Of a stretch of 64,000 bases of DNA, positions 14,609 through 37,107 are shown in pieces. The notes under the pieces are model-generated. The model did not search any database and was not told where the DNA came from. It saw only the letters and a program-made list of their open reading frames with translations. How positions within the stretch are numbered: position 1 is the stretch's first letter; each line of letters opens with the position of its first letter. The stretch comes from Desulfomarina profundi (GTDB taxonomy: Bacteria; Desulfobacterota; Desulfobulbia; Desulfobulbales; Desulfocapsaceae). The position numbers and the translations under genes are program-made. Location of the stretch: NCBI RefSeq assembly GCF_019703855.1, contig NZ_AP024086.1:1-64000 (forward strand). The letters are read 5' to 3'.

Positions 14609-15538
14609 ATGAATGAAGCGTTGATTCTGGAGAAGCTGGATGCTCTCAGCGATGAAGTGAGATCATTGAAAAAAGATGTTCTTCAGGAGTTGAGGCGTGA
14701 TCTTGAACCTGTTCTCGAATCAACTCGTCCTGCGACAGTCGGATTCCTGCAGGATGTTGAAAACGGACAGGCAAAGGAAAGGCTCCTGAAATTGTCCTCG
14801 ACACTGCTTGCAAGTGTGGAGGAGTTGAGCGAAGCTGTGAGGTGTGTCAGCAGTGAAGACGGGGAAAAGAGTACGGCTTTTCCCAAAAGTGTACAGTTCC
14901 TGACTGATGTGGAGAGTGAATTCCATATTGATGAACTGGCTATTCTGATGCGCAAGGCCATAACAAACCTGGATACCATGGGAGAAGGTCTGGATATGCT
15001 GAAGGCCGGGGTGGAATTCAGGGATGAGATGGCTCCGGTTCTCCGGCTTATGTATCCCAAAATTGTCAGGTTTCTGAATTCTCTCCATGAGGGTGAATTC
15101 CAGGCGGAAAAGCTCGGGGATCTGCTGCATACGGTTCTGTTGAACATTCATACTCTGAGCGATCTGTTGAATATGATTCAGCCGTTTACTGAGCTGGTCA
15201 AGGAGGTCGGTGTCCTGATGAAGGAGACGGATATTATTAATGGAATGAATATCTGGCTTGACAGCCTGCAGCAGGAAAGTGGCCTTGTCAGGTTGGCCGG
15301 AACGTCCATGGCGGCACTCAGGAAACTGGACTGCAGTGAAGAACAGGTCAACGAAATCTGTCGGGCCATTGAAAATCTGGACCTGTCGAGTGCTGAGCCG
15401 GTGGGGCTCATGGGCATGGTTAAACAGATGAACGATCCCAAGGTCAAAGAAGCAATCGGCTTTATTTTCATGATTCTGCAGACAATTGGAGCCTGTCTTC
15501 ATACGTGCAGAATGAATGGAGAAAAGCAGAAGATATAA
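14609..15538 (+). CDS. DUF1641-containing helical protein
   Basis: 309 residues, almost entirely helical, no membrane segment. The C-terminal part (SAEPVGLMGMVKQMNDPKVKEA, then IGFIFMILQTIGACL) matches the DUF1641 pattern GLxGLLxxLxDPDVQRGLGFLLEFLKxLG. The first two thirds contain two related segments (GFLQDVENGQAKERLLKLSS and QFLTDVESEFHIDELAILM, then RFLNSLHEGEFQAEKLGDLL), so an internal repeat is likely. DUF1641 proteins are known to be encoded beside sulfide:quinone oxidoreductases; the SQR-like gene follows after 33 bases. A partner or adaptor role in sulfur oxidation-reduction is inference. Confidence 0.75.
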   Translation: MNEALILEKLDALSDEVRSLKKDVLQELRRDLEPVLESTRPATVGFLQDVENGQAKERLLKLSSTLLASVEELSEAVRCVSSEDGEKSTAFPKSVQFLTDVESEFHIDELAILMRKAITNLDTMGEGLDMLKAGVEFRDEMAPVLRLMYPKIVRFLNSLHEGEFQAEKLGDLLHTVLLNIHTLSDLLNMIQPFTELVKEVGVLMKETDIINGMNIWLDSLQQESGLVRLAGTSMAALRKLDCSEEQVNEICRAIENLDLSSAEPVGLMGMVKQMNDPKVKEAIGFIFMILQTIGACLHTCRMNGEKQKI

Positions 15539-15571: not shown

Positions 15572-16795
15572 ATGAAAAAATTAGTCATACTCGGTGCGGG
15601 ATCAGGAGGCACCATGATGGCCAACAAGATGCGGGGCGACCTGGATGAAGAATGGTCCATTACCCTGATCGACAAGGATAATGTTCACTATTACCAGCCC
15701 GGCTTTCTTTTTGTGCCGTTTGATATCAATAAACCAAAGGATATCAGGAGGAGCCGGCGGGAGTTTATCAAGCCGGGAATTGATTTTGTTATCTCTGAAA
15801 TTACAGGAGTTGACTGGGACAAGCAGGAGATTACAACGGCTACTGAAGGAATCTTCAAGTATGATATTCTCGTGATGTCCACAGGCTGTGATATCAGGCC
15901 GGAGGAAGTTGAAGGTCTTCAGGAGGGTTGGGGAAAGGATATTTACGGTTACTACCGCTACAATGACTGTCAGGTACTCGGCAGGGCGCTGAAAAAATTT
16001 ACCGGTGGAAAACTGGTGGTGAATATTGCGGAGATGCCGATAAAATGCCCTGTGGCGCCCCTTGAATTTGCCTTTCTGGCTGACTGGTATTTCCATGAAA
16101 GAGGTATTCGGGACAAGGTGGAGATTGAGTTTGTAACACCTCTTGCCGGGGCCTTTACCAAGCCCGTGGCAACAAAAGTCCTGACCAGTGCCTGTCACGA
16201 TAAAAACATTAAAATTACGCCAAACTTTTCCCTGGGATCGGTGGATCATGAGAAGAAGGTCATTCAGGCCTACGATGGTACCGAGGTTGATTACGATATG
16301 CTGGTGTCCATTCCGCCGAATTTCGGCGCCCAGGTTATGATCGATTCGGATGTTTCTGATCCCATGGGTTATATCCCTGTGGATAAACATACCTTGCAAC
16401 CTGAAGGCTATGACAACGTATGGGTTCTGGGTGACGGGACAGACGTACCCACTTCAAAAGCGGGAGCTGTTGCCCATTTCCAGGGTGATGTGCTTCATGA
16501 GAATATCATGGCTTTCATTTCCGGAGGTGAACAACATGCCCGGTCCGACGGGCATGCGGTCTGATTTATAGAATCAGGCTTCGGGAAAGCCTACATAATT
16601 GATTTTAACTATGACACTGAACCTCTTACAGGAAAATATCCATTTCCGGCAGTTGGTCCGCTGAACCTGCTCAGGGAAACGGAACTTAACCATATGGCCA
16701 AGCTGATGTTCAAATGGGCCTATTTTAATCTGCTGCTGAAAGGTACCTGGCTTGGGCCGCCGGATCTGATGATGGAAGGAAAGGACCGGGGCTGA
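15572..16795 (+). CDS. sqr: Sulfide:quinone-oxidoreductase-like flavoprotein with in-frame TGA, probable selenocysteine
   Basis: FAD enzyme of the pyridine nucleotide-disulfide oxidoreductase superfamily, SQR group; expected to oxidise sulfide or persulfides at the membrane. 407 residues if TGA 16562-16564 is decoded. Seen: FAD motif ILGAGSGGTMMANKM, Cys106 (VMSTGCDIRPEEVEG), Cys159 (PIKCPVAPLEFAF), and VLGDGTDVPTSKAGAVAHFQ. The frame then reads GHAV-TGA-FIESGFGKAYIID, where SQR relatives have GHANCFIE.GFGKA, so TGA sits at the third redox cysteine, residue 331. The same frame continues with family-like sequence to TGA 16793. A SECIS-like hairpin follows (16576-16592). The alternative is a simple stop, giving 330 residues, or a base error. 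Second gene of an operon with DUF1641. Confidence 0.75.
16562..16592 (+). promoter_or_regulatory. Candidate bacterial SECIS element with its UGA codon
   Basis: AGGCTT (16576-16581) pairs fully with AAGCCT (16587-16592), with loop CGGGA. The loop starts 18 bases after the TGA, and has G in its second position. This fits the published bacterial SECIS model (loop of 3-14 bases, G among the first two, 16-37 bases from UGA) as I recall it. The stem is only 6 bp. Confidence 0.55.
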
Positions 16796-34311: not shown

Positions 34312-35970
34312 ATGAGTTTGACTGGAAGTGATGATGATTTAGTTGGTGATGTGGGTGAACGGGTTCGCGAATATGGCCCCGAAGAAGAAACATCCCTTTT
34401 TGGACTGGCTAACGATGATCACGTGGATGAAGAGGTAACTCCCGTAGATTTCTCGGATGCTCGATATGACAGACGTGGTCGGGGGCCGGGAGATCGTCGT
34501 CGCGGGATTTTCACCGATCGTCGCAAAGGAGACAGGCGCAGAATTTCCCGGGGATCAGCAAAACAGTCTTCCAAATCCAAATCATCCGTTGATCCGATGA
34601 ATATATATCTTCGGGAGATGGGGAGCCTTACTCTGCTCAATCATGAAGAAGAACTGAAACTCGCCAAAATGATGGAAGACGGTAAAAAGAGAGTGCAAAA
34701 TGCCGTTCTCAAGACACCGTTGGCCATTCCGGCCCTCCAGGAAGTTGTGAAAGTGTTGCCCAAGAGTCCGGGGAAGATCTGCCAGGTTCTGGCCGGTATA
34801 CAGGACAACCAGTCCGGAGTTGTGGAGCGGGAGAGCAGAGAACTTCTGGCCGCAGTGGAGAGGGCAGTTGAAATCGACAGGGAGCGAAATGAACTCCTGA
34901 AACAGTATCTGGCCCTTGATGAGACGACAAAAGAGGCGAAAGATCTGTTTGCAGAGGCGCAGGCCAAAGGAGAAGAAATCGCCGGACTGTTTGAAGACAA
35001 AATTCTCTGTTCCGATTGTGTAAATGCGGTTGCCAAGGGCCTTGAAGAGTTGTCAAAACGGTTCAGGAAGGTTTTTGTAACTGTCATTGGAGAATACAGC
35101 CTGGGGGAAAATGAATCCGGTGAAGAAATTTCTCCAGAGGCTATAGAGCGGCAGGTCAACCGGCAGATGCTTGAAGAATCCGGTGTTGACCAGAAGGACC
35201 TTCAGCAGATTCTCCATGAAGTCGATTCAGGCTGGGAAATGTATAAACATGCCCGGGAAGGGCTTGTTCGAGCCAATCTTCGTCTGGTTATTTCCGTATC
35301 GAAAAAATTTGTCAACCGTGGGCTGCAGTTTTCTGATCTCATCCAGGAAGGTAATATCGGCCTGATGAAGGCTGTGGAAAAATTTGATTATCATCGTGGA
35401 TACAAGTTCAGTACCTATGCCACCTGGTGGATAAGACAGGCCATTACAAGGGGTATCGCCGATCAGGGCAGGACTATAAGGCTGCCTGTTCATATGATAG
35501 AGACGATTAATCGACTGCTCAGGGTTTCCAAGGATTTTCTTCTTGAAGAACATAGGGAACCGACGCCGGAAGAGATGGCGGAGCAACTCGGTACGGATGT
35601 GGCCAAGGTGAAGTCGGCCCTGAAAATTGCCAAAGATGCCATTTCTCTCGATACGCCTGTCGGAGATGACGGGGAAAGTCATCTTGGAGATTTCATTGAA
35701 GACAAGGAAAAACTTGGGCCTGATGAAGCGAGCATGGTTACAAGCCTGAGGGAATGTCTGAATCAGGTTATGTCCTCCCTGACGCCCCGGGAAGCAAAAG
35801 TGCTGCGTATGCGTTACGGTATCGATGTTGACTGTGATCATACTTTGGAAGAGGTCGGAAAATGCTTTGCCGTGACAAGGGAGAGAATCCGACAGATTGA
35901 GGCCCAGGCAATTGTCAAGCTCAAACATCCGTCCAGGGTGGAAGAGCTGAGGGTTTTTATGGTCGATTGA
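34312..35970 (+). CDS. rpoD: RNA polymerase sigma factor RpoD (sigma-70)
   Basis: 552 residues. Primary sigma factor. Seen: region 1.2 ([21 protein letters not shown] cut at [15 protein letters not shown]), region 2 ([39 protein letters not shown]), region 3, and region 4.2 ([19 protein letters not shown]). The N-terminus lacks an ordinary region 1.1 and instead has an acidic stretch and an arginine-rich patch ([24 protein letters not shown]). A long non-conserved region sits between 1.2 and 2.1. Start ATG 34312 follows GGGAGAG. Confidence 0.96.
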
Positions 35971-36006
35971 TTTTTTCATCGGCCTGTTGAACAGCAGATA
36001 TTAAAA

Positions 36007-37107
36007 ATGGCTCCTGTTTTGGATTGGATCAGTCTCAGTCTTGTGCCGGGTCTCGGGGTGACTGGTTTATGGAAATTGATTGATCATTTCACAGAACCCG
36101 GCAATGTTTTGCAGGCGTCATCAAAAGAGTTGCGCCAGGTTCCCGGGATCAGATCCAGCCAGATTGAAAACCTGGTTCGCCGTGACGAGAACCTGCAGCG
36201 GGGACGGGACGAACTCTACCGGATGAAACAGGCCGGAGTGCAGGCTTTGACTTGGGATGATGCCTTGTATCCGGAACTTCTCCGCGAAATACCAGATGCA
36301 CCTTCGGTGTTGTATCTCTCAGGAAAAAAAGAACTTCTTCGAAAAAAATGCATTGCAATCGTCGGTTCCAGAGCGGCAACCGGCTATGGCAGGAAGGTGG
36401 CTCATTCCCTGGCAAAGGCACTGGTCAGTCATTCAATGACAGTGGTCTCCGGATTGGCTCTCGGTATTGATGCTCGTGCCCATTGGGGGGCCTTGGATGG
36501 GAGCGGTGATACAATTGGCGTTCTTGGGTGTGGCCTGGATGTTGTTTATCCCAGGCAGAATGAAAAGCTCTCCGGGAAAATCCTTGAGAAGGGAGTGTTG
36601 GTCAGTGAATATCCGCTGGGAACCCGTCCGGAAGGGTTCAGGTTTCCCGCCAGAAACAGAATAATTGCCGGGTTGAGCCGGGGGATTGTCGTGGTGGAAG
36701 CCGCCAGGAAATCTGGCTCCCTGATCACCGCACAGCTGGCGTTGGACTATGGCAGAGAAGTTTTTGCTGTTCCGGGTCAGATTGATTCACACAAAAGTTC
36801 AGGCAGCCATTGGCTGCTGCAGCAAGGCGCCAAGCTGGTTCAGGGGGTGGAGGACATTCTGGAAGAATTTCCCGGTGAGGATACAGCCCATCTTTCTGAG
36901 ACTCTGGAAAACGGTAAGGAGATAGATGGACTGGAACCCGATTCTCTTTTGCTTCTCAATGTGCTTGAGCCATACCCCCAGACCCGGGATCAGGTGATAG
37001 ACAGTGTGGAGCTGCCTGCAGCCAGGGTCAATGAGCTTCTGCTCCTCCTTGAACTGGAGGGTCTTGTTGAAGTTCTGCCAGGTGACAATATAAGGAGTCT
37101 GTTGTAG
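36007..37107 (+). CDS. dprA: DNA-processing protein DprA (Smf)
   Basis: 366 residues. Loads RecA on incoming single-stranded DNA during transformation. Seen: N-terminal SAM-like helices (LVPGLGVTGLWKLIDHF), Rossmann core CIAIVGSRAATGYGRKVA, VVSGLALGIDARAHWGAL, SEYPLGTRPEGFRFPARNRI, VVEAARKSGSLITAQLALD, and the winged-helix tail. The downstream topA is absent; instead rpe and pgi follow. Start ATG 36007 lies 37 bases after rpoD. Confidence 0.94.
   Translation: MAPVLDWISLSLVPGLGVTGLWKLIDHFTEPGNVLQASSKELRQVPGIRSSQIENLVRRDENLQRGRDELYRMKQAGVQALTWDDALYPELLREIPDAPSVLYLSGKKELLRKKCIAIVGSRAATGYGRKVAHSLAKALVSHSMTVVSGLALGIDARAHWGALDGSGDTIGVLGCGLDVVYPRQNEKLSGKILEKGVLVSEYPLGTRPEGFRFPARNRIIAGLSRGIVVVEAARKSGSLITAQLALDYGREVFAVPGQIDSHKSSGSHWLLQQGAKLVQGVEDILEEFPGEDTAHLSETLENGKEIDGLEPDSLLLLNVLEPYPQTRDQVIDSVELPAARVNELLLLLELEGLVEVLPGDNIRSLL

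Follow-up and report, generated by a model that had tools for sequence, protein, structure and literature searches.

Is the in-frame TGA at codon 331 of a Desulfomarina profundi gene resembling sulfide:quinone oxidoreductase (SQR) a stop, or does it encode selenocysteine (Sec)? The gene lies in the window, by which we mean the whole 64,000-nucleotide stretch of DNA analysed. The first-pass annotation had proposed an SQR-like enzyme with Sec at a catalytic cysteine, and this proposal is borne out: residue 331 corresponds to Cys379 of human SQOR, and TGA pairs with Cys codons at this place in relatives. The gene product is very probably an enzyme that oxidises sulfide and has Sec in place of one of its two reactive cysteines. 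Relatives place the source bacterium near the Desulfocapsaceae. Taken as a whole, the locus is best explained by a Sec-containing type III SQR with hairpin-guided UGA decoding and repeated Sec gains, an explanation that we hold with high confidence. The features of the gene are as follows.

15572..16795, + strand: gene for a type III sulfide:quinone oxidoreductase of 407 codons, counting TGA 331 as Sec; terminal stop TGA at 16793-16795; matches NF049943 and human SQOR
15887-15889, window coordinates: codon of Cys106
16046..16048, + strand: codon of Cys159, the partner cysteine on the side of the flavin; equivalent to Cys201 of human SQOR and Cys156 of Aquifex SQR; Cys in 147/147 rows
16562..16564, + strand: in-frame TGA, codon 331, candidate selenocysteine; equivalent of human SQOR Cys379; TGA/Cys codon alternation in 147 rows

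TGA alternates with cysteine codons in homologues

The frame 15572-16795 contains exactly one inner TGA, and 76 residues continue beyond it. The unbroken frame, the TGA, its context and the residues that follow all read as first described. The motif HxxU is present as HAVU at residues 328-331. In its own genome, this SQR has one close copy, and the second match is 21% identical.

Aligning homologues at the TGA codon, as the first-pass annotation had advised, gives 147 related rows that reach codon 331. Sixty-three have TGA, 84 have TGC or TGT, and no other codon occurs. The set comprises 113 tree rows (50 with TGA and 63 with a Cys codon, TGC in 49 and TGT in 14) and 34 further rows (13 with TGA and 21 with TGC or TGT, three of the 21 being repeats of other rows). 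Downstream of codon 331, Sec and Cys forms share conserved residues. With these homologues, a selenocysteine at 331 is strongly supported by sequence comparison.

Among 257 genomes of the window's class, 67 match closely (E up to 1e-60), 40 of them with an in-frame TGA. The class of genome G484 has 21 matching genomes among 29 searched (16 with an in-frame TGA), and the order of genome G637 has 77 among 389 (eight with an in-frame TGA). Each such match carries one in-frame TGA, which lies at the equivalent of codon 331 in all loci read.

A TGA copy and a copy without inner stop occur together in 20 searched genomes (nine in the window's class, seven in the G484 class, and four in the G637 order); most of these second copies were read, and they are Cys-type. 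Sec and Cys forms are therefore comparable within one organism. If Sec sits at the sulfur-transfer residue of SQR, nature would have provided an experiment on a trisulfide enzyme. Tandem Cys and Sec copies about 300 bases apart are seen at locus L065 (2242-3456 and 3759-4973 of G035:C9) and likewise at L121. At G671:C356:1460-2287, in the order of Candidatus Desulfatibia, there is a partial SQR relative interrupted by a single in-frame TAG.

The candidate selenocysteine occupies the position of human SQOR Cys379

The product matches NF049943 (NCBIfam, type III sulfide quinone reductase, selenoprotein subtype) at residues 2-404 with 665 bits, above the cut-off of 525. Membership of this family is rejected as proof of Sec, as five of five Cys forms tested also exceed the cut-off. 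The best solved relatives by sequence are human SQOR chains, which match over nearly the full length (1.4e-47 to 5.1e-47). An AlphaFold2 model built with 29 relatives has a mean pLDDT of 88.9, and its nearest fold match is human SQOR (Z 46.8, 393 residues, 2.5 Å). The SQRs of Acidithiobacillus and Aquifex match at Z 40-41.

In the alignment with human SQOR, C159 is matched to chain position 161 and U331 to chain position 339. Adding 40 converts these positions to Cys201 and Cys379, in agreement with the spacing of 178. By alignment, C159 and U331 are thus the counterparts of the trisulfide pair Cys201 and Cys379. Cys or Sec is found at both human SQOR redox positions in 147/147 rows. If gene prediction halts at the TGA, the protein is cut to 330 residues and lacks the Cys379 equivalent.

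Cys106 and Cys159 had been put forward as the other two redox cysteines. Cys159 holds up, as it faces Cys201 of human SQOR and Cys156 of Aquifex SQR. Cys106 does not, as the residue aligned with it is Pro in the Aquifex enzyme and Ile in human SQOR. The third redox cysteine of Aquifex SQR has no counterpart here by that alignment, because its Cys124 faces the conserved Tyr128. Cys106 is present in 63/63 Sec rows versus 51/84 Cys rows (counts that ignore kinship, with three of the 84 being repeats), and it may have a role other than that of a third redox cysteine.

Several points weigh against the assignment as an SQR. The activity is assigned from homology, type II NADH dehydrogenases match the model at Z about 36, above SQR 3H8I (31.7), and the deep-Sep paper, in its available text, files these proteins under COG1252 Ndh (PMC12013277). 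The protein could accordingly be a selenoprotein that acts as an NADH:quinone oxidoreductase or another oxidoreductase dependent on flavin adenine dinucleotide (FAD). We consider this very unlikely: human SQOR is clearly closer in fold and also gives the best sequence match, which spans almost the whole protein, the two SQOR redox positions are kept as Cys or Sec in every row, and DsrC and DsrE genes lie beside the SQR gene of one Calditrichota relative.

A conserved hairpin follows the TGA

The first-pass annotation had described a perfect 6-base-pair stem with a CGGGA loop starting at 16576, and the sequence agrees.

16576..16592, + strand: predicted selenocysteine insertion sequence (SECIS) hairpin; 6-base-pair stem AGGCTT/AAGCCT, 5-nucleotide loop CGGGA, 17 nucleotides from TGA to loop; fits published geometry

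AGGCTT occupies 16576-16581, the loop 16582-16586, and AAGCCT 16587-16592, with 11 nucleotides between the TGA and the stem. As given in the available text of a 2026 review (PMC13188914), SECIS geometry comprises a loop of 3-9 nucleotides, a stem of 4-16 base pairs, a G in the first two loop positions, and a distance of 16-37 nucleotides from the UGA; we apply it without the energy condition of the model. The hairpin of the window lies within each of these limits (5 nucleotides, 6 base pairs, loop start CG, and 17 nucleotides).

Two results weigh against leaning on this hairpin by itself. First, the 49-nucleotide stretch folded alone has only modest stability (z -1.68; 12/200 shuffles as stable or more). 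A single-sequence hairpin is therefore weak evidence, and the case rests on comparison. Second, among 16 Sec rows that end in TGA, a hairpin that fits the model follows the terminal TGA in nine, and five of these nine have one stronger than -5.8 kcal/mol; some may be terminators. Geometry alone therefore proves little and is rejected as stand-alone proof. The same geometry applied to the terminal TGA of the window's gene gives no model-fitting hairpin.

The 63 TGA rows carry three hairpin types only, and the Sec groups are named by hairpin string. Sec1 consists of the window and its Desulfobulbales relatives (including Desulforhopalus singaporensis, Desulfopila aestuarii, and Desulfosediminicola flagellatus), with the hairpin AGGCTT-CGGGA-AAGCCT at 17 nucleotides. 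Sec2 consists of family f21 in the class of G484, with the hairpin CGAGAAGG-GGTC-CCTTCTCG at 25 nucleotides. Sec3 consists of Candidatus Desulfatibia vada and Desulfobacterales relatives, with the hairpin AGCCAT-GGT-ATGGCT at 18 nucleotides. SECIS geometry is found in 50/50 TGA rows of the tree set. The hairpin energies are -5.8 (Sec1), -11.5 (Sec2), and -6.9 kcal/mol (Sec3), and the mean of the 63 Cys rows is -1.07 kcal/mol.

Synonymous variation at wobble sites is a stronger test than fit to the geometry. In Sec1 (38 rows), a single codon is used at six of the seven hairpin codons with invariant residue versus 0/145 elsewhere. The corresponding values are 7/11 versus 41/229 in Sec2 and 6/7 versus 138/268 in Sec3 (three rows). 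By these codon counts, the test is strong for Sec1, moderate for Sec2, and weak for Sec3. The Sec1 hairpin is kept in 38/38 rows of the clade (34 with AGGCTT and four with GGGCTT as the first strand). It is this conservation, together with the codons frozen at wobble sites, that makes the hairpin evidence strong and upholds the SECIS first proposed from one sequence.

The genome encodes the selenocysteine machinery

The genome of D. profundi contains selA, selB, a tRNA-Sec (74.9 bits), and two selD genes, so that all four of selA, selB, selC, and selD, which the first-pass annotation had wished to see confirmed, are found. Each of the selD genes (L040 and L041) has one in-frame TGA, and both are therefore possibly selenoproteins.

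The machinery provides no contrast between Sec and Cys-only genomes, a control that weighs against the Sec reading. SelA or selB is above cut-off in 51/53 Sec genomes and equally commonly in 25/27 Cys-only genomes tested, the latter chosen mostly for completeness. Neither selA nor selB is matched in the Sec genomes G017 and G636, and the single-contig genomes G019 and G160 have a Sec SQR and selB with no selA; stretches of N are possible in all four, and these results are no evidence of absence. A looser selA search of G019 and G160 gives weak matches, of which the inspected ones (L231, L232, and L235) look by eye like other pyridoxal phosphate (PLP)-type enzymes.

With these results, two other readings of the TGA can be weighed. 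If TGA 331 were a true stop, the gene would be a truncated SQR, a pseudogene, or a sequencing error. TGA is indeed an ordinary ending in these genes (7/37 Sec1 rows with known end and 9/9 Sec2 rows). However, the same TGA is found in dozens of genomes, on which ground error, pseudogene, and plain stop are rejected; in addition, the protein beyond the TGA is conserved, the hairpin is frozen, and the genome has the Sec genes. A true stop is therefore extremely unlikely. We give no more credence to the idea that UGA 331 is read as another residue, without selenium. Nothing specific speaks for it; against it stand the Cys found here in all 84 remaining rows, the selection acting on the hairpin, the SelB and tRNA-Sec of the genome, and the lack of a model-fitting hairpin after the terminal TGA of the window's gene. 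Decoding as selenocysteine is thus the reading that we adopt.

Selenocysteine forms three clades

Each Sec group is a clade among Cys rows, with few Cys rows inside Sec1 and Sec2; these Cys rows were grouped with those clades after the first tree had been inspected. The trees leave out rows shorter than 380 residues, repeats, the split or partial loci L030, L083, and L031, and the codon-less L131. The Sec1 gene is in two pieces in G043:C53 and G068:C11, and both are kept out of the trees. The one-clade test of all Sec rows and the smaller of the two tests of Sec2 with Sec3 additionally leave out 19/38 Sec1 rows and two long rows.

Constraining all Sec rows to one clade is 67.5 log units worse (p-AU 0.00043), and a single clade is rejected. 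Therefore, Sec was likely gained at least twice at the same codon. The unrelated hairpins suggest three gains. We hold it about as likely as not that the Thermodesulfobacteriota gained Sec three separate times at the sulfane-sulfur position of type III SQR, with a new SECIS on every occasion. If true, the three gains would suggest that a trisulfide-type cofactor containing selenium has repeatedly been of advantage in oxidising sulfide. In Sec3, the residues SHGMA replace others, such as SGYEKA, of the Cys relatives, as if the protein had been reshaped by the hairpin.

Two results weigh against three gains. Sec2 and Sec3 as one clade are not rejected (cost 2.1, p 0.415; with more rows, 10.1, p 0.184), and the trees do not tell gain from loss. 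Sec could then have entered SQR a single time, long ago, with later turnover of the SECIS and many losses in place of repeated gains, and the Cys rows inside Sec1 and Sec2 would be in line with this. We regard this history as unlikely, because all Sec rows as one clade are rejected, the hairpins are unlike in stem, loop, and distance (17, 25, and 18 nucleotides), and 0/63 TGA rows have a hairpin beyond the three types.

The Cys rows inside the Sec clades suggest reversions to Cys, the direction being inferred. In Sec1 they are L127, L128, and L121b, the last of which has a Sec copy in tandem; in Sec2 they are L193, L194, L195, and L221. L195, which has TGC, retains an 8-base-pair SECIS-like hairpin at the Sec2 distance (-8.7 kcal/mol), likely a SECIS relic; SECIS relics of FdhA and a HesB-like protein appear in a figure legend of PMC1794560, in its available part. 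The L121b Cys copy has no model-fitting hairpin.

Neighbouring genes and other frames of the window

14609..15538, + strand: gene with a DUF1641 domain, conserved SQR neighbour just upstream; PF07849, 35.6 bits

A DUF1641 homologue lies directly upstream in 31/32 Sec1 loci with at least 1 kilobase of upstream sequence. In the remaining locus (L121), the homologue is farther off on the upstream side, ahead of the tandem Cys copy. In ten Sec2, Sec3, and Cys loci, one downstream gene each was compared with Pfam; it has DUF1641 in nine and not in L177. L127 (a Cys row within Sec1) gives no DUF1641 match by tblastn. We know of no tested function of DUF1641, and our literature search for DUF1641 with SQR found nothing.

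Searching the whole window for frames that continue through a TGA yields 353 candidates, three of which pass, including this gene; the thresholds were loosened after a stricter run had missed everything, this gene included. The second passing frame joins rpoD and dprA (34312-37107) across a TGA with a weak hairpin. This TGA is an ordinary stop and serves as a contrast case. The third passing frame has no NCBIfam family match.

Proposed mechanism

In human SQOR, sulfide attacks the bridging trisulfide between Cys379 and Cys201; Cys379 bears the outgoing sulfane sulfur, and Cys201 forms a charge-transfer complex with FAD, according to the available text of PMC12510033 and PMC11039317. By comparison, the hairpin at 16576-16592 would direct SelB and Sec-tRNA to decode UGA 331 as Sec. 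Sec331, in place of Cys379, would face the solvent, carry the sulfane sulfur, and pass it to an acceptor, and C159 would lie beside the flavin in place of Cys201. Sulfide would be oxidised, and two electrons would pass via FAD to the quinone pool. The resting cofactor may be a selenium analogue of the trisulfide (Sec-sulfane sulfur-Cys) or a selenylsulfide. The Sec form would have been gained at least twice, perhaps three times, with its own SECIS each time, and sometimes lost again.

Comparison with known systems

The first-pass annotation had expected a new or little-known selenoprotein. This does not stand, as NF049943, the 2026 review, and the 2025 deep-Sep paper already cover it. The review tabulates NF049943 and cites deep-Sep as the source (PMC13188914, available text). 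In two Desulfosediminicola species, deep-Sep reports a TGA-containing protein as an NAD(P)/FAD-dependent oxidoreductase (PMC12013277, available text), and the words "quinone", "sulfide", and "SQR" are absent from its main text. We take this protein to be the same predicted selenoprotein, with D. flagellatus (L116) inside the Sec1 clade and carrying the same hairpin. PMC9312934 does not mention quinone or sulfide. In the available parts of the literature on Sec SQR, we find neither a division into three hairpin types nor repeated gains described. The family itself is already predicted; what we add, and have met in no paper, is that the Sec forms fall into three clades whose hairpins at this one codon are unrelated.

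The present protein resembles the NF049943 family in its near full-length match and in the HxxU motif, as given in the available table of the review. The family model differs in that it separates neither Sec from Cys forms nor the three Sec clades. The SQRs of Aquifex and Acidithiobacillus (3HYV and 3T31) share the fold (Z about 40), and C159 aligns with Aquifex Cys156, whereas Aquifex Cys124 is without counterpart by alignment. Human SQOR (6OI5 and 6OI6) shares the fold, the length, and both redox positions, C159 as Cys201 and position 331 as Cys379. It differs from the present protein in having Cys379 where Sec is predicted here, in having Ile opposite Cys106, and in an identity of 26-28% in fold alignments.
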